A stretch of 22,885 bases of DNA from a virus, in IMG/VR virus record IMGVR_UViG_3300031746_000183, positions 1 to 22,885 of that record, one strand, 5' to 3'. Under the pieces are notes generated by a model that was not told the DNA's origin, did no database searches, and worked only from the letters and a program-made list of their open reading frames with translations. The translations under genes and the position numbers were made by a program. Each line of letters begins with the position of its first letter. Positions within the stretch are counted from its first letter, which is position 1. Of the stretch, positions 2,138 to 22,878 are shown piece by piece.

Positions 2138-2626
2138 ATGGCTGATTTACTCATGAAAATGCCGATTCCGTATGAACCGAAAAGGCAAAACCGATTCATC
2201 CTAAGATTCCCCTCAACACTTGGTATTAACGAGTGGTACGTAGAATCTGCGGCTAGACCTCACATTAAAATCAATCCTGTAGAAATTCCTTTCTTGAATA
2301 CTTCTACATATGTCGCTGGTAGATTTACTTGGGACCCAATCTCTGTTAAGTTTAGAGACCCAATTGGACCTTCAGCAACACAAGCTCTTATGGAGTGGGT
2401 TCGTCTTTGTGCGGAGTCTGTTACAGGTCGTATGGGGTACGCAGTAGGATATAAGAAGAACGTTGATTTAGATATGTTAGACCCAACGGGTGTCGTGGTT
2501 GAAAAATGGATTCTTCAAGATACATTCTTATCAGACGTTAACTTTGATAACTTGGCTTACAATACCGATGGTTTAGCAACAATTACTGCTCAACTTCGTA
2601 TGGACCGTTGTATTCTAGTTTATTAA
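2138..2626 (+). CDS. Tail tube protein (gp19-like)
   Basis: The protein has 162 residues; T4 gp19 has 163. It forms the hexameric rings of the inner tail tube through which DNA is delivered. Visible support: the N-terminal PYEPKRQNRFILRFP strand, the ESAARPHI and VEIPFLNTSTYVAGR segments, FTWDPISVKFRDPIG, a helical stretch around TQALMEWVRLC, and a C-terminal strand where SDVNFDNLAY leads into TITAQLRMDRCILVY. This is the classic tube beta-barrel order. CGT arginine codons are prominent, unlike in the hub genes, which fits high copy number. Two copies of the promoter-like motif precede it and a strong terminator follows it, so it may be a one-gene transcription unit. Confidence 0.93.
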   Translation: MADLLMKMPIPYEPKRQNRFILRFPSTLGINEWYVESAARPHIKINPVEIPFLNTSTYVAGRFTWDPISVKFRDPIGPSATQALMEWVRLCAESVTGRMGYAVGYKKNVDLDMLDPTGVVVEKWILQDTFLSDVNFDNLAYNTDGLATITAQLRMDRCILVY

Positions 2627-2718: not shown

Positions 2719-3474
2719 ATGGACAATTCAACACAATACGGGCAACAAAATTTTAGTCTTCCACACGATGTGGTAAAACTACCTTCAGGTGGTGTATTTT
2801 ATAAATCAAAGAAAAAGTCAATCAAAGTTGGTTATTTAACCGCTGCGGATGAAAATCTTCTTATGGGAGGAGCGTCAATGGGTAACGATAGTGTTATTAT
2901 GACTCTTTTGAGAAATAAAATCTATGAGTCTGATATTAAACCTGAAGAATTATTACAAGGGGATATCCAAGCTATCTTAATCTTTTTAAGAAATAGTGCA
3001 TTTGGTCCCGAGTATGAATTTGTAATAAATGACCCTGAAACAGGAAAATCATTTAATTCAAGTGTTTCTTTAGAAGAGTTATATATGAAAAAAATTGATG
3101 TCCAACCAAGTGATGACGGTTCAATAACGACCACATTACCAAAATCAGGACTTCAAGTTAAAGTTAAACCGTTATCTTTTGGAGAATTAGCAGAATTAGA
3201 TAAATCAGCAGAACAATACCCACAAGGAAGAGTCGTACCAAAACAAACTTGGAAACTACAAAAAATGATTATTGATTTAGGAGGAACTACAGATAAATCA
3301 GTAATTGCTCAAACTATTGAAACATTACCTATTCAGGACGCTAAATACATACGAAAGTTCGTTGAAGATAACGAACCTGGCCTTGAACTAAACAGAAAAA
3401 TTACAACCCCATCAGGAAAAGAGGTAACCATCGAGATTACCTTTGGGGTAGAGTTCTTTCGGCCTTTCTTCTAA
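2719..3474 (+). CDS. gp26-like tail/baseplate assembly chaperone, short (unshifted) product
   Basis: The protein has 251 residues and resembles the T4 gp26 baseplate-assembly family. It has an N-terminal KLPSGGVFY motif, a middle segment QAILIFLRNSAFGPEYEF followed by a short beta module (VINDPETGKSF), and a C-terminal region EIDRK-poor but with the EVTIEITFGVEFF strand. Families at this position act as assembly chaperones for the tape measure and central hub. The gene lies between the tube and the tape measure, the usual site of G/GT-type tail assembly chaperones. The ATG abuts a terminator T tract and there is no Shine-Dalgarno sequence. The zero-frame stop at 3472-3474 ends this form. A clearly protein-like extension continues in the +1 frame (see the next two entries). 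Confidence 0.78.
   Translation: MDNSTQYGQQNFSLPHDVVKLPSGGVFYKSKKKSIKVGYLTAADENLLMGGASMGNDSVIMTLLRNKIYESDIKPEELLQGDIQAILIFLRNSAFGPEYEFVINDPETGKSFNSSVSLEELYMKKIDVQPSDDGSITTTLPKSGLQVKVKPLSFGELAELDKSAEQYPQGRVVPKQTWKLQKMIIDLGGTTDKSVIAQTIETLPIQDAKYIRKFVEDNEPGLELNRKITTPSGKEVTIEITFGVEFFRPFF
3457..3463 (+). other. Putative programmed +1 ribosomal frameshift site (TTTCGGC)
   Basis: In the zero frame the codons are TTC-TTT-CGG-CCT-TTC-TTC-TAA. A P-site phenylalanine tRNA on TTT (3457-3459) can move forward one base to TTC (3458-3460), another Phe codon, while the rare arginine codon CGG waits in the A site. Decoding then continues at GGC (3461). This is mechanistically like known +1 sites in which a slow A-site codon follows a P-site codon that can re-pair. 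The shift must occur between the +1-frame stop TAG at 3449-3451 and the zero-frame TAA at 3472, which fixes the window to about 20 bases. A -2 shift would reach the same frame, but no convincing -2 slippery site is present. Confidence 0.55.
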
Positions 3475-3622
3475 TTACCGAGAACTTCAATCAAGAGAAT
3501 ATTACGTCTGTACTAAGCATTTAAATGTGTCTTGGTCAGACTTTATTATTATGCCCGTATTTTTAAGGAAGTATTTAATCAATGAATTAATTGAAGAGAA
3601 TTCTCCAAAAGAAAATACTTAA
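3461..3622 (+). CDS. Frameshift extension of the tail assembly chaperone (GT-like C-terminal part)
   Basis: 53 codons are open in the +1 frame relative to the chaperone and end at TAA 3620-3622. The sequence looks like real protein (SSNYRELQSREYYVC, then LNVSWSDFIIMPVFLRKYLI and an acidic/polar tail), and this interval otherwise has no gene. The only in-frame ATG (3551) is internal to that protein-like sequence, so independent initiation is unlikely. Joined at the TTT/TTC site, the long product would be about 300 residues. By analogy with other tailed phages, the extension would bind the tape measure, whose gene starts 25 bases further on. Confidence 0.68.
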   Translation, partial: GLSSNYRELQSREYYVCTKHLNVSWSDFIIMPVFLRKYLINELIEENSPKENT

Positions 3623-3647: not shown

Positions 3648-6600
3648 ATGTTATTTCAAGACCCTAAAAAAGATACCGGCAAAACGGTAACAGAACAAAA
3701 AGTACCTCTTTTTAAATTTCCTAGTGATAAAACAGTTACAGAGTTTATAACTAGTTTAAATCCTATAACTCAAATTTCTCAAATTGTCTCTTCAAATTTT
3801 GGTGCTGGATTTATGACAAATCTGAATAATGATATAAAGGTGATGGAGGAAGCAGTTAGTGGATTGGCAGGTAAATTTGGAGGTATGAGAGAGTTTGCAA
3901 TGGAGATAAAATCTTCAATAGATGCTGCAACTCCAAGCGTTATTGCTTTAGGTGGTACTATCGAAGACGTTGTTGCAATGCAAGAAGGGGCAATAAAGGC
4001 GTTAAATAGACAAGTTATTTTAGATAAAGAGGCTTATGCCGATTTATATGCTGTTGGTAATTTAATAGGTGACGGTACAGAAGCAACTTCGGTAAGTACC
4101 GCAAAATTAGTTGGGGAGTTTAAAGATGCTGGAGTTGGGTTATACCAAGTCAGTAAACAAATGGGGGATATTATTAAAGATGCTAGAGATATTGGTGCAG
4201 CATCCGCCGCGGTTTATGAACAATTAAGTGCGAATATTAAAAGTGTAAATCTATACAACTTTTCTGAAGGTGTTAGAGGAATGGGTAAAATGGCTGCCGA
4301 AGCCGCGGTTTTGAGATTAAATATGTCTGACGTATTAAACGTTGCGGAAAAAGTTTTTAATCCTGAAGATGCGATACAAATGGCTGCTGATATGCAAAGG
4401 TTAGGGGTACAAGTTACAGACCTTTTAGACCCGTATAAGTTAATGGATATGGGTAGAAATAAACCCGAAGAGTTACAAGCCGACATTTATAAAGCGGCGG
4501 CAGCACTTACATACTTTGATGAAAAAAATCAAAAAATATCAATTCTTCCTGGAGAGCAAGGGAGATTAAGAGAATTGGCTAAAGCTTTCGGTATGACTGC
4601 CGCTGAATTTTCAAAAATTGCCGTTAACTACGGGGATATGGAAATGAAAATGAAAGCAATTAAATTTAATCCGTTTGTTACTGAAGAAAAAGACCAAAAA
4701 TTCTTGGCCAGTTTATCTGAACTTAAAGATGGTAAGTATATGGTTAATATTGGAATGGACCCTAAAACCAATGAGGCTATAATGAGACCGATAGAGTCTC
4801 TAGGGAAAATTGAAATTGACAGATTAAAAAGAGCTGAGGCCGACAAACAAAAAAGTCCGTCAGAATTAATTGTTGAAGCGAACAATAAGTTAGTTAACAT
4901 ACATAACGCTCTTTTATCAATGCAAGGAATTGCCCCAAGAAAATTGGCCGCCAGCCAAACTATGGAGAATTTCCAACAAAAAACGTCTGAAATATATCTA
5001 CCAATTATTAAAGGTACAAGAGAAGCGATGGGTGTTCAAGAAAAACCAGGAGGTTATCTTGACCAAAGTAAAATTGGTACGGATATAAACAAAGCGTTTG
5101 GAAGTCTCGCTACTGAAATTTCAGACGCGAAAAATGTTGAGGATATACAAAACGCTTTAAAACACGTTGGTAAAAATATTAGTGAGTTGGGTAAGGAATA
5201 TTTAGTAAGATTTAAAAATATACCTGAATATGCGACAGAAGCCTCTAAGAAAATGAAAGATAAAGGTGAAAGTGGAATGGCTTATGATTTTACAGAGTGG
5301 GGAACTAAATTAAGTACTACGATTGCCACCTCCTCAACAGAAATACTTAATTTTTGGAAAAAATTTGAAAATCCTGGCACATTAAAAGTAACAATATATG
5401 GTGAAAAGATTGGATTAATTCCTTTAATTGCTGAAGGAATGAAATTAACATTACCTGATGAGTATGTAAAATACAAAGACGAAGAAAAAAAATCGGAAGA
5501 AGAAAAGAAAACGACTAAAAAAGAGAATAAAGATATAGTAACAATACCCGCAGCGCCATTAACTGCAAGTAAAATTGAAATTCCTAAGGAAAAAATGGTG
5601 GAGACTGTAGGAAAAAAAGACGCAACCACACCCGAAACTAAAAAAGAAACTTTAAGTACGAAAACGACACCACCTTCATCAAACAAACAATATTTAATTG
5701 ACATTGTTCAATCTACCAAAGATAAAAATGATAATTTATATAATTGGAAAGAAGTTAGAGATGCTTGGCAAAAAGAACATTCTGATAAAAAAGAAGGTAG
5801 TTTAGACCAAAATTTAGAATTATTAAGTGATTGGAAAAAAGGATGGAAACCTGAACAGACAGAAAAAACTAAAGTCAAACAAGAACCAACAGTTAATAAA
5901 TTTATTAATTTAGAAGATTTAAAATTAAAAACACCAGGAATAATACCTGAGATAAAAATACCTACAGCAGAAAGTAAGGTATCTGAAACAACCAAAAAAG
6001 AAATAGGTGGGACGGATAAGTCCGTAGAAAAATTCTCCACGTTTACCAATACTTTAAATGATTTAGAAAAAAAATACTTCACAACAACTTTACCTAGTTT
6101 ATCTGATATAAATTTAAAAACACCTGGTATAGTACCTGAAATAAAGTCAACCGAAGTTGTCAAAACAACTCCTGAAAAAACAATTGAAAATAATAGGTTT
6201 GATAAAGAAAGTATTTTTTCTAAAATAAGTGAAATTGTTTCACCAAAAACCGAAACTCCTAAAATTGAATACCCTAAGACATTTGATTTATCGTTAATTA
6301 AAAATTTAACATCTAAAGACACAGAAACCAAAACAGTAGAAACTACAAATGAAAAGTACTCAACGATGAAAGAAGCGTTAACCGATTCTAAAAAAACCTA
6401 TGAAAAAATAGAATCTGTTATGAAACCAATGGCAAGTAACTTAACTTTGGATTTAAAAACATTATTACCAAAGTCTTTAAGTATGGGAGGTGAAAAAACT
6501 ACGGATTTTTCAAACATTACTAAAGGATTAAACAGTATGGTTGAAAATATAAGAAAAGAAACAAAACTACCTACATTTACAAAAATTACTGAGACCACTT

Positions 6601-7151
6601 CAATCCCAAAAGAAAAAACAACTGCAGAAACTAAAGCAGAAAAAATTGTTGGATTTACGCCAGGTATGAAAAGTGAAGACATACTAAAACAAATTATGCC
6701 TTATTTAGAAAAATCAGGAACTTTAATGGGTATAAATGAAATGGTTAAAAAAGAAAGAGATAAAGGTGTTATACCTGAAAGTAAGATAACTCCGAAAACA
6801 AAAACTGAAAGTGTAACTAACAAAGAATATAATGAAACAAAATTAAAAACAATATCAGAAACAATTGCAAGAACACAAGTTGCGCCTAAAATGCCCTCTC
6901 AAAGTTTTGTTGTACCAAGAACAATGATGAGAGATGAAATAAAAACAAAAACAAGAGAAGGGGTAACAGATAAAATTGATGTCACAGTAGTTGTGAAAGG
7001 GGAATTTCCAAATGATTTACAACCAATTTGGAATCAAGCTTTGAGAAATACGCAATGGATGGAAAATCTACAAAGAACAATTTCAGCATCAATTATTGAA
7101 AAGAACGCGCTTAGAGGTACAGGTAATTATTCTAAACCGTTTTTAACATAG
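3648..7151 (+). CDS. Tail tape measure protein
   Basis: The protein has 1167 residues. It sets tail length and occupies the tube lumen until DNA ejection; T4 gp29 is the functional counterpart but about half as long. Residues about 1-350 are helical and rich in Ala/Met/Gly (for example EAVSGLAGKFGGM, AAAVYEQLSANIKS, EDAIQMAADMQRLGVQV), typical of tape measures. Residues about 600-1090 are low-complexity and rich in Lys, Thr, Glu and Pro, with a repeated LKTPGI(I/V)PEIK unit. The C-terminus (about 1110-1167) returns to ordinary sequence, KIDVTVVVKGEFPNDLQPIW. There is no obvious membrane segment. It is preceded by the frameshifted chaperone and followed by the baseplate proteins, which is the canonical order. 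If fully helical (about 0.15 nm per residue) it could span roughly 170 nm, so a long tail is expected. Confidence 0.87.
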   Translation: MLFQDPKKDTGKTVTEQKVPLFKFPSDKTVTEFITSLNPITQISQIVSSNFGAGFMTNLNNDIKVMEEAVSGLAGKFGGMREFAMEIKSSIDAATPSVIALGGTIEDVVAMQEGAIKALNRQVILDKEAYADLYAVGNLIGDGTEATSVSTAKLVGEFKDAGVGLYQVSKQMGDIIKDARDIGAASAAVYEQLSANIKSVNLYNFSEGVRGMGKMAAEAAVLRLNMSDVLNVAEKVFNPEDAIQMAADMQRLGVQVTDLLDPYKLMDMGRNKPEELQADIYKAAAALTYFDEKNQKISILPGEQGRLRELAKAFGMTAAEFSKIAVNYGDMEMKMKAIKFNPFVTEEKDQKFLASLSELKDGKYMVNIGMDPKTNEAIMRPIESLGKIEIDRLKRAEADKQKSPSELIVEANNKLVNIHNALLSMQGIAPRKLAASQTMENFQQKTSEIYLPIIKGTREAMGVQEKPGGYLDQSKIGTDINKAFGSLATEISDAKNVEDIQNALKHVGKNISELGKEYLVRFKNIPEYATEASKKMKDKGESGMAYDFTEWGTKLSTTIATSSTEILNFWKKFENPGTLKVTIYGEKIGLIPLIAEGMKLTLPDEYVKYKDEEKKSEEEKKTTKKENKDIVTIPAAPLTASKIEIPKEKMVETVGKKDATTPETKKETLSTKTTPPSSNKQYLIDIVQSTKDKNDNLYNWKEVRDAWQKEHSDKKEGSLDQNLELLSDWKKGWKPEQTEKTKVKQEPTVNKFINLEDLKLKTPGIIPEIKIPTAESKVSETTKKEIGGTDKSVEKFSTFTNTLNDLEKKYFTTTLPSLSDINLKTPGIVPEIKSTEVVKTTPEKTIENNRFDKESIFSKISEIVSPKTETPKIEYPKTFDLSLIKNLTSKDTETKTVETTNEKYSTMKEALTDSKKTYEKIESVMKPMASNLTLDLKTLLPKSLSMGGEKTTDFSNITKGLNSMVENIRKETKLPTFTKITETTSIPKEKTTAETKAEKIVGFTPGMKSEDILKQIMPYLEKSGTLMGINEMVKKERDKGVIPESKITPKTKTESVTNKEYNETKLKTISETIARTQVAPKMPSQSFVVPRTMMRDEIKTKTREGVTDKIDVTVVVKGEFPNDLQPIWNQALRNTQWMENLQRTISASIIEKNALRGTGNYSKPFLT
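5910..5957 (+). repeat. Tape-measure peptide repeat, copy 1
   Basis: Residues 755-770 of the tape measure read LEDLKLKTPGIIPEIK. They match copy 2 at 818-833 (LSDINLKTPGIVPEIK) in 12 of 16 positions. The DNA is less similar than the protein, which suggests an old duplication under protein-level constraint. Confidence 0.7.
6099..6146 (+). repeat. Tape-measure peptide repeat, copy 2
   Basis: Residues 818-833 read LSDINLKTPGIVPEIK, 63 residues after copy 1. A degenerate third match (GVIPESKI) occurs near the C-terminal end of the low-complexity region. Confidence 0.7.
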
Positions 7152-21009: not shown

Positions 21010-21120
21010 ATGAATAGTACTTTATTTTTTATTGGTATGTTAATAAACACAATTGCATTTATATTGATGTCAATTGTATTATATAGGTTTATAAAAAGAA
21101 AAAAATATGGCAGGAATTAA
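21010..21120 (+). CDS. 36-residue single-pass membrane miniprotein
   Basis: The ATG at 21010 opens a 36-codon frame ending at TAA 21118-21120. The product starts MNSTLFFIGMLINTIAFILM. Residues about 4-26 are a continuous hydrophobic helix, followed by a basic end (RFIKRKKYGRN), the pattern of a membrane anchor with a cytoplasmic positive C-terminus. It fills an otherwise empty gap of about 105 bases and overlaps the UvsX start by 14 bases. Function is unknown. A chance frame in AT-rich DNA is possible, because T-rich codons encode hydrophobic residues. Confidence 0.45.
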   Translation: MNSTLFFIGMLINTIAFILMSIVLYRFIKRKKYGRN

Positions 21121-22099
21121 AAAAAAAGAAATATCCTTATCAAGCATTAAGAATAAATTCTCAACAAAAACAAAATATAAAGAAACCGAGTTTTATAACT
21201 GCGGGCAGGCGTTTTATGATGCTTGCGGATTACCAGGTCCTGTGCTTGGTGGAATTAATATGTTATTAGGTCACTCAAACGCTGGAAAGACAACGGCATT
21301 AATACTTGCGGCTGCGGATGCTCAAAAGAAAGGACACTTACCTGTATTCATCATTACAGAGAAAAAATGGAGTTTTGAACACAGTGTAGAGTTGGGATTA
21401 CAGGCACAAAAAAATGAAGATGGAACTTGGGATGGGGATTTTTTATTTAATGATTCGTTTGATTATATAGAGCAATTAACGGATTATATAAACGAGTTGT
21501 TAGATGCTCAAGAGAAGGGGGATTTACCATACAATTTAGCGTTCTTCATAGATTCAATCGGAAGTATCCCTTGTAAAATGACATATGATGGTTCGGGTGG
21601 GTCAATGCACGACGCTAGAATTTTGGCGGATAAAATAGGTAGAGGTCTTCATTCAAGAATATCAAAATCAAAAAAAGAGGATTACCCATATATAAATACT
21701 ATGTCTGTAATAGTACAACCTTGGGTTCAATTACCGGATTCGCCTTTCGGTCAAGCTACCATCCAACCTAAGGGAGGCCAAGCTTTGTTCTTGGCGGCAT
21801 CTTTAGTATTTTTATTTGGTAACCAAAAAAGTTCGGGAGTTAGTCATATTACTGCAACAAAAAATGGTAGAACAATATCTTATGCTGTCAGAACTAAAGT
21901 ATCACTTCTAAAAAATCACGTAAATGGTATACAATGGAAAGATGGAAAAATAATTGCAGTACCACAAGGGTATATATCGGATACAAAAGAAGAAATTGAC
22001 AAATACAAAAAAGAATACTCACAATATTGGAATGCAATATTAAGTGGTGATGGTGAAATTACTTTGGAAGAAACAAGTGATGATGAATTACCAGAATAA
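21107..22099 (+). CDS. uvsX: UvsX/RecA-like recombinase
   Basis: The protein has 330 residues (T4 UvsX: 391). It forms filaments on ssDNA and catalyses ATP-dependent strand exchange, working with the gp32-like SSB encoded upstream. Walker A is GHSNAGKTT (residues 55-63; K61, T62). Walker B is LAFFIDSIGSI (D149). A later segment QPWVQLPDSPFGQATIQPKG fits the L2/DNA-binding loop area, and KGGQALFLAASLVFLFG resembles the RecA-core beta strand that follows. The C-terminus is acidic (ETSDDELPE), as in RecA-family autoregulatory tails. The N-terminus is shorter than in T4. The start overlaps the miniprotein gene. It is preceded by an A-rich leader without a Shine-Dalgarno sequence. Confidence 0.9.
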   Translation: MAGIKKKEISLSSIKNKFSTKTKYKETEFYNCGQAFYDACGLPGPVLGGINMLLGHSNAGKTTALILAAADAQKKGHLPVFIITEKKWSFEHSVELGLQAQKNEDGTWDGDFLFNDSFDYIEQLTDYINELLDAQEKGDLPYNLAFFIDSIGSIPCKMTYDGSGGSMHDARILADKIGRGLHSRISKSKKEDYPYINTMSVIVQPWVQLPDSPFGQATIQPKGGQALFLAASLVFLFGNQKSSGVSHITATKNGRTISYAVRTKVSLLKNHVNGIQWKDGKIIAVPQGYISDTKEEIDKYKKEYSQYWNAILSGDGEITLEETSDDELPE

Positions 22100-22151: not shown

Positions 22152-22313
22152 ATGGGAAGAAAAAAAGTTGATGATGATAAAAAGAAAGTGAAGTTGGCGG
22201 TGTCAATAGACCCCGAATTACCACAATATTTCAAAGACAAATCAATAAATCTTTCTTCCCTTGTTAATAAACTATTAAAAGAATATGTTAAAAATGGAAA
22301 TAAAAGTTTGTAG
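22152..22313 (+). CDS. 53-residue ribbon-helix-helix-like protein
   Basis: The protein begins MGRKKVDDDKKKVKLAVSID. The pattern is a basic N-terminus, one beta strand with alternating residues (KVKLAVSID), a short helix (ELPQYFKDK), the turn INLSS, then a longer helix (LVNKLLKEYVKN). This is the order of Arc/CopG-type ribbon-helix-helix DNA-binding proteins, and the length is right for a minimal one. Such proteins bind DNA as dimers and often repress their own operon. A Bacteroidota-like -7 element precedes it, and its 3' end overlaps the HNH gene by up to 29 bases. An antitoxin role is possible in principle, but no toxin-like partner is next to it. Confidence 0.62.
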   Translation: MGRKKVDDDKKKVKLAVSIDPELPQYFKDKSINLSSLVNKLLKEYVKNGNKSL

Positions 22314-22878
22314 TAAATGTAATTTAGAAAAATTATTATCTGAATATTATAAAAAGAAAGGTTGTTTAATGGGGGTTAATTCTTATTGTAAATTATGTCA
22401 GTTAGAATTAAAACAAAAACATAGAAAAGAAAATCCTGATAAATATAAAGAAGAAACAAAAAAATATTATCTAAAAACACGGGAAATTCAGGCGGTAAAA
22501 AAGAAAAAGTGGATAAGCGAAAATAGAGAAAAATACAATAGTTATTGGACAAATAGGAAAAAAAATGATGAGGTATTTAAATTAGTAATGGGTATGAGGT
22601 CTAGAATATGGAAATACTCAACATTACTTAACATCACCAAGAAAAACAAAACTTTTGAAATTGTCGGTTGTTCTCCGCAAGAATTAAAGGAACATTTAGA
22701 AAAACAATTTGTTCCGGGAATGAGTTGGGAAAACAGAACAGAATGGCACATTGACCACATAATTCCATTATCATCGGCAAAAACAGAAGAAGAATTATAC
22801 AAACTTTGTTATTATACAAATCTCCAACCATTATGGGCGGAGGAAAACTTAAAGAAGAGTAATAAAATACTAAATTAA
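22285..22878 (+). CDS. HNH endonuclease with N-terminal zinc-binding motif (homing-type)
   Basis: The longest form has 197 residues; a start at 22294 (MEIKVCSKC) removes three residues and is equally good. The N-terminus has two CxxC pairs (C9, C12, C35, C38), a likely zinc-binding recognition module. A Lys/Glu/Tyr-rich helical linker follows, then GCSPQELKEHLEKQF and the HNH core: EWHIDHIIPLS (H155, D157, H158), then TNLQPLWAEEN (N179 and following asparagines). This architecture is common in phage-borne homing or nicking endonucleases that spread into related genomes. The gene is complete and its active-site residues are present. It lies behind the recombination genes and overlaps the RHH gene, and may have arrived as a mobile insertion. 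Confidence 0.85.
   Translation: MLKMEIKVCSKCNLEKLLSEYYKKKGCLMGVNSYCKLCQLELKQKHRKENPDKYKEETKKYYLKTREIQAVKKKKWISENREKYNSYWTNRKKNDEVFKLVMGMRSRIWKYSTLLNITKKNKTFEIVGCSPQELKEHLEKQFVPGMSWENRTEWHIDHIIPLSSAKTEEELYKLCYYTNLQPLWAEENLKKSNKILN

Follow-up and report, generated by a model that had tools for sequence, protein, structure and literature searches.

Does a gp26-like gene lying just upstream of a putative tape measure gene encode one protein or two? This question is raised by IMG/VR virus record IMGVR_UViG_3300031746_000183, of which positions 1 to 22,885 were analysed (22,885 nucleotides, hereafter the window). In this window a member of the T4_baseplate family ends at a TAA codon, as a first-pass annotation of the DNA had stated, while a neighbouring frame stays open well beyond it. 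From comparison with related loci, it is very probable that the gene gives rise to a short and a long chaperone through programmed +1 ribosomal frameshifting. The features on which this reading depends are as follows.

2719..3474, + strand: gp26-like short form, T4_baseplate family, 251 amino acids (aa), zero frame (PF12322 at 5e-10, phrog_150 at 1.4e-14, and relatives)
3472..3474, + strand: zero-frame stop codon TAA, five codons past the slip codon, from the reading of the open reading frame (ORF)
3457..3460, + strand: slip site TTT_C, where UUU in the peptidyl (P) site would re-pair with UUC
3460..3462, + strand: rare codon CGG in the aminoacyl (A) site
3461..3622, + strand: +1-frame extension of 53 codons (3461-3619) and a stop, putatively a gp51-like C-terminal part (clade-wide conservation, purifying selection in +1, three predicted helices)
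3406..3449, + strand: upstream RNA hairpin, ending 7 nucleotides (nt) before the slip codon (fold, covariation, stability)

The match to PF12322 reached 39.9 bits against a curated cut-off of 24.5 and covered positions 10-218 of the 219 in the profile. The zero frame closes with GAG TTC TTT CGG CCT TTC TTC TAA, and the +1 frame, bounded upstream by a TAG at 3449-3451, runs open from 3452 until its own stop codon at 3620-3622. If TTT is read and C3460 skipped, 247 residues would be joined to 53 more (GLSSNYREL...KENT) to give a fused product of 300 aa.

Conservation of the second reading frame

A profile scan of IMG/VR yielded 80 relatives which, together with those found earlier, form a clade of 83 loci, 68 of them below 90% identity. 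The first-pass annotation had described 53 protein-like codons in the +1 frame up to 3622 and had held that an in-frame extension, or unrelated sequence at this place, in relatives would speak against a frameshift. Neither was found, the extension being in the +1 frame in 83/83 loci and in the zero frame in 0/83, and the alignment of the extension and junction that it had called for shows the +1 layout kept throughout. That a sequencing error or gene decay broke the frame is exceedingly improbable; a single contig could carry an indel, but the same layout recurs in these 83 loci, which come from many metagenomes, and in other, isolated phages, and this explanation was dropped. Decay is also at odds with selection on the extension, which, judged by its codon-position entropies in the +1 frame (1.05/0.79/1.46, the third position being the most variable), is under purifying selection as a protein. 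Within its motif MPTYxRKYL the P and the R are invariant.

The extension could instead be a separate short gene translated by reinitiation past the zero-frame stop, a reading which accords with the short ORFs annotated at this place in SP-15, BRock, LuckySocke, Mel-JY01 and immuto and with the conserved ATG that follows the stop in cyanophages. It is nevertheless very unlikely for this clade, where the first ATG, GTG or TTG of the extension frame occurs anywhere from codon 3 to codon 38 past the slip, 5/67 sequences have no ATG in that frame and 1/67 has none of the three. The conserved GLSSxY residues mostly precede any such start and overlap the zero frame, and reinitiation would leave both the TTT-CGN sequence and the hairpin unexplained. 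The earlier description of the window's extension as having no start of its own save an internal ATG needs amending in part, the ATG being present but accompanied by an internal GTG, and the starts of relatives lie at no conserved place.

A second frame which is conserved at the protein level and has no conserved start of its own is a mark of tail assembly chaperone pairs. The extension here is in the +1 frame, not in the -1 frame at a slippery heptamer typical of such pairs, although -1 is not universal and +1 cases are known. Used alone, the extension retrieved one weak true relative in a tblastn search of phages and none in plasmids. A search of genome contigs gave no relative. An AlphaFold2 model (39 fused relatives) had a predicted local distance difference test score (pLDDT) of 82.8 and a predicted template modelling score (pTM) of 0.74, and in it the extension is predicted to form three helices (251-268, 272-277 and 280-294). 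Foldseek gave nothing at E 0.001 or better against the PDB and no solved fold, and a structure search of viral models matched T4-type hub proteins.

Codon usage at the proposed shift site

Clade sequences have TTT as slip codon in 68/68 cases and C as the next base in 68/68, so that the site proposed at first pass (TTT-CGG-C, with tRNA-Phe moving to TTC while a rare CGG occupies the A site) is well supported. The codon after TTT is always CGN (CGG 42, CGC 13, CGT 11, CGA 2, AGA/AGG 0). Among the 612 arginine codons in the rest of the gene the counts were AGA 470, AGG 54, CGT 50, CGA 34, CGG 2 and CGC 2; AGA and AGG thus make up 524/612 (86%) of gene-body arginine codons, yet never appear in the A site, while CGG and CGC together account for 55/68 at the site versus 4/612 elsewhere in the gene. 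CGG is used for 2/232 arginine codons of the window, and an in-frame TTT-CGN occurs once in its 7,320 codons, at the slip site.

Parsimony changes were counted on a tree built from the gene minus the hairpin and junction. At least 20 changes were found in the A-site codon, nearly all at the third base, and zero in the TTTCG bases; third-base changes at conserved columns elsewhere ranged from 7 to 36 (median 19, minimum 7). Coding in the new frame does not explain the fixation of the first base of CGN, because that base is skipped in the +1 reading. A conserved UUU_C followed by a slow or rare A-site codon, the arrangement of influenza A PA-X, was therefore found here. The arrangement of RF2, a stop codon in the A site with a Shine-Dalgarno stimulator, was not; the A site holds CGN, and the nearby GGGG forms an arm of the covarying hairpin.

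Two other routes would lead to the same frame. Slippage of RNA polymerase on a T run is suggested by the TTTTTT found at the site in most relatives, but the window and some relatives have TTCTTTC, with a run of only three T, on which ground it was rejected, and it would leave the rare CGN codon and the hairpin without explanation; we regard it as highly improbable. A slip at the CCT proline codon, or a -2 shift, would end in the same frame; CCT is often present here, and tRNAs for proline are classic +1 slippers. Four of the 68 lineages (six loci of 83), however, have GTT in place of CCT and keep all else, and the proline slip was rejected because of these CGG-GTT relatives. A -2 shift would need tRNA-Phe to pair with UCU in the window, so the TTCTTTC there argues against it as it does against polymerase slippage. 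Neither would account for the invariable C that follows TTT or for the rare CGN codon, which makes both very improbable explanations.

RNA structure upstream of the proposed shift site

The stretch before the slip site folds into a hairpin with a calculated energy of -14.6 kcal/mol in the window. Its outer arms (3406-3411/3444-3449, ACCCCA/UGGGGU) pair CCCC with GGGG, and a variable inner stem (3421-3429/3435-3443) stands on top. In the ungapped alignment of the 68 sequences the covariation score was 0.276, versus 0.175 +/- 0.008 in shuffles and 0.06-0.15 when the structure was slid along the alignment; covariation was beyond 500/500 shuffles on four of five measures, with 2/500 on the fifth. 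A double change is seen at pair 12-51, both members of which are third codon positions (CG 65, AU 2, UA 1). Compared with synonymous-codon shuffles the hairpin stretch was more stable, with a mean z of -2.31 versus -0.18 for a control stretch. The strongest synonymous constraint lay at columns -17, -16, -14 and -4 from the slip codon, the top four of 84, and these form and flank the hairpin stem. Downstream of the site no strong structural signal was seen (mean z -0.67), and past the upstream arms the RNAalifold consensus held no more than a weak stem of 3 bp.

The same +1 slip might instead be stimulated by the conserved GGG codon acting as an RF2-like internal Shine-Dalgarno sequence, the hairpin then being incidental. 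GGGG is present in 65/68 sequences and lies near the slip site, but its exceptions change on both arms together (GCACC/GGUG in L019 and L042, UGUCC/GGAC in L029), and a clear Shine-Dalgarno sequence is found near 0/13 gene starts of the window and at 1/67 gp26 starts. This proposal is unlikely, and the covarying hairpin is a better explanation of GGGG. The hairpin itself probably promotes the forward shift.

As a separate observation, the 9-nt bulge of the hairpin (3412-3420, UCAGGA and neighbours) has unusually fixed codons, GGA in 66/68 and TCA in 51/68, which pairing does not explain.

Related phages and the proposed link to T4 gp51

The same arrangement was found in well over a hundred related phages. 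In SP-15-type relatives the site is mostly TTT_CGT, and in the immuto/huge-phage/Microcystis type it is TTT_TGG, TTT_TAC or CTT_TGG at the same place, the extension being nearly all in +1 in both; Streptomyces phage BRock has TTT_CGC. The 50 distinct loci of the cyanophage type carry the extension in -1, preceded by T_TTT_TTC without exception; in Rhizobium phages IC12 and RL38J1, whose extension is likewise in -1, the corresponding sequence is TTTTTTC or TTTTTTG. Excess stability upstream of the site was seen in the immuto-type set (mean z -1.72), but with no shared helix in a 70% pairing scan, and none was seen in the SP-15-type set or in cyanophages.

Some further observations concern these relatives. 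In cyanophage-type loci L096 and L218-L297 gp26 ends with an invariant T_TTT_TTC_G and a -1 continuation, which in L096 is annotated as baseplate hub assembly catalyst (gp51); this gp26 end probably marks a -1 frameshift that has gone unrecognised, or else a coupled start. L090 (LR756511) and L217 have their extension in +2 and lack a clear slip site; in L090 TAATGGATG follows the stop. Short hypothetical ORFs occupy the extension region in L092, L093, L095, L091 and L005 (SP15_046, BRock gp135, LuckySocke 91, Mel-JY01, immuto 232), and these ORFs, annotated between gp26 and the large gene that follows, look like parts of the extension with a wrongly called start.

PF12322 is matched over its length by T4 gp26 (208 aa) and also by T4 gp51 (249 aa), which has ~49 residues more; the two are, from their sequences, paralogues. 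The fused cyanophage gp26 plus extension aligned to gp51 at 2.6e-16, and in profile comparisons the extension of this clade matched those of the immuto type (2e-15) and of the SP-15 type (1.6e-8), that of the immuto type matched the cyanophage one (1.6e-5), and the cyanophage one matched the C-terminus of gp51 (8.7e-12). In T4 the two forms would thus be made from separate genes, gp26 the short one and gp51 the long one. Cyanophage and vibriophage gp51 have been described by Sullivan (2010) as being without the first ~200 residues (PMC3037559); the short cyanophage gp51 may perhaps be the frameshift extension of gp26, the alternative being a separately started small protein.

Genome neighbourhood

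The gp26-like gene lies between a tail tube gene and a putative tape measure gene, as do tail assembly chaperone frameshift pairs.

2138..2626, + strand: tail tube protein, upstream neighbour (phrog_4542 at 1.7e-21)
3648..7151, + strand: putative tape measure protein, 1167 aa, from gene order and from the gene in the same place annotated as tape measure in Listeria phage LIS04 and Flavobacterium phage immuto

Near-repeats of LKTPGI(I/V)PEI occur at 5700-6330 within the putative tape measure gene. A 271-aa protein encoded at 1200-2015, between the tube gene and a gene at 3-1154 which we take by its place to be the tail sheath, has a DWDDN motif presumably like that of HAD phosphatases. At 22285-22878 there is what we take to be a possible HNH-type endonuclease gene, following a gene (21107-22099) whose product presumably is a RecA/UvsX protein. 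The host is suggested to be Bacteroidota-like because no clear Shine-Dalgarno sequence stands at the 13 window starts.

Proposed mechanism and its standing

Under programmed +1 frameshifting most ribosomes would read TTC TTT CGG CCT TTC TTC TAA and release the 251-residue gp26-like protein, while a minority would stall as the rare CGG awaits decoding in the A site. The tRNA-Phe that carries the peptide, paired to UUU by wobble, could then slip one base forward to UUC, which its GAA anticodon fits better, and reading would continue as GGC CTT TCT ... into the 300-residue protein with its conserved helical extension. The hairpin would probably re-form behind the ribosome and push the forward move. 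If lambda gpG/gpGT is a guide, the tape measure protein may be coated by the short form, and tail tube subunits may be recruited by the long one. The reading frame, slip site, codon bias, hairpin and protein-level selection are each backed by comparison among relatives.

More widely, we think it likely that the T4-type gp26 family is the missing tail assembly chaperone pair of T4-like phages, for which a review of recoding made an exception of T4 from G-T tail chaperone frameshifting (PMC5009743). Such phages would have arrived at the two forms in three ways. One is a +1 shift at UUU_Y, accompanied at least in this clade by a hairpin upstream; cyanophages would shift -1 at U_UUU_UUC; and T4 would have duplicated the gene, gp26 serving as the short form and gp51 as the long one.

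A number of points weigh against this account. The occurrence of the shift, its efficiency and the role of the hairpin are inferred from sequence comparison. The codon counts from the 68 sequences are non-independent samples, a kinship which the parsimony test addresses. No such hairpin is evident among the SP-15-type sequences, so the +1 shift of the family does not depend on it. The putative tape measure protein had no family match of its own in PF and phrog profile searches. A direct hhalign comparison of this clade's extension with the C-terminus of T4 gp51 was weak (E 0.018, low probability), in the expected register, and the link of this clade to gp51 runs via the intermediate groups.

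At first pass a +1 event in the gp26 family had been considered uncommon and not well described. The first part does not stand, +1 being the rule in several gp26 clades and a +1 chaperone shift at UUU_C being already annotated in the myophage Moonbeam, whose protein has no PF12322 match. The second part agrees with our literature search, which found no account of frameshifting in the T4 gp26 family; subscription papers lay outside that search, so priority is uncertain. The kind of frameshift is already known; what is new, to our knowledge, is its setting in the T4 family, the rule of a rare codon at the site and the hairpin with covarying arms upstream, and the hairpin and the gp51 connection go beyond what the first-pass annotation had proposed. 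Reading gp26 and gp51 as short and long chaperone forms would give a testable account of two puzzling T4 proteins, and frameshifting would account for the short hypothetical ORFs, and perhaps the cyanophage gp51, annotated between gp26 and the next large gene. With its invariant UUU_C, a rare codon retained over many codon substitutions and a hairpin upstream whose arms covary, the site would also make a good natural bacterial +1 system.

Comparison with known frameshifting systems

In phage SPP1 a structural gene is expressed with a programmed +1 shift; this and the shifts of Listeria phage PSA concern capsid and major tail proteins, not a chaperone. The PSA shifts are programmed +1 events in structural genes (PMC5009743).

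The T4 hub assembly chaperones gp26 and gp51 share PF12322 with the gene described here, and the additional C-terminal part of gp51 sits where the extension does, but T4 has two separate genes and needs no frameshift. The short gp51 of cyanophages and vibriophages is similarly a short ORF after gp26 that resembles the gp51 C-terminus, although in the cyanophage set it is in the -1 frame after T_TTT_TTC and has a conserved ATG of its own.

The tail chaperone of the SPO1-like Bacillus phage Moonbeam undergoes a +1 shift (PMC4299906), annotated exactly after TTT in CGA TTT C|AA CTC TGA. It is thus alike in shifting +1 at UUU_C, and differs in having CAA in the A site, an extension of more than 200 residues and, as said, no match to PF12322. 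In PA-X of influenza A the site is UUU_CGU, P-site tRNA-Phe slips to UUC and a rare arginine codon is in the A site (PMC3498833), with no evident stimulatory signal (PMC5009743). The UUU_C site with an arginine CGN codon in the A site is common to PA-X and the gp26-like gene, whereas PA-X is an unrelated protein of a eukaryotic RNA virus.

In lambda, gpG/gpGT consists of an abundant short form and a frameshifted form extended at the C-terminus, encoded by a gene upstream of that of the tape measure protein (PMC5009743). The gp26-like gene has the same position and is predicted to give the same two forms, but its family is PF12322 and its shift would be +1, whereas that of lambda is -1.
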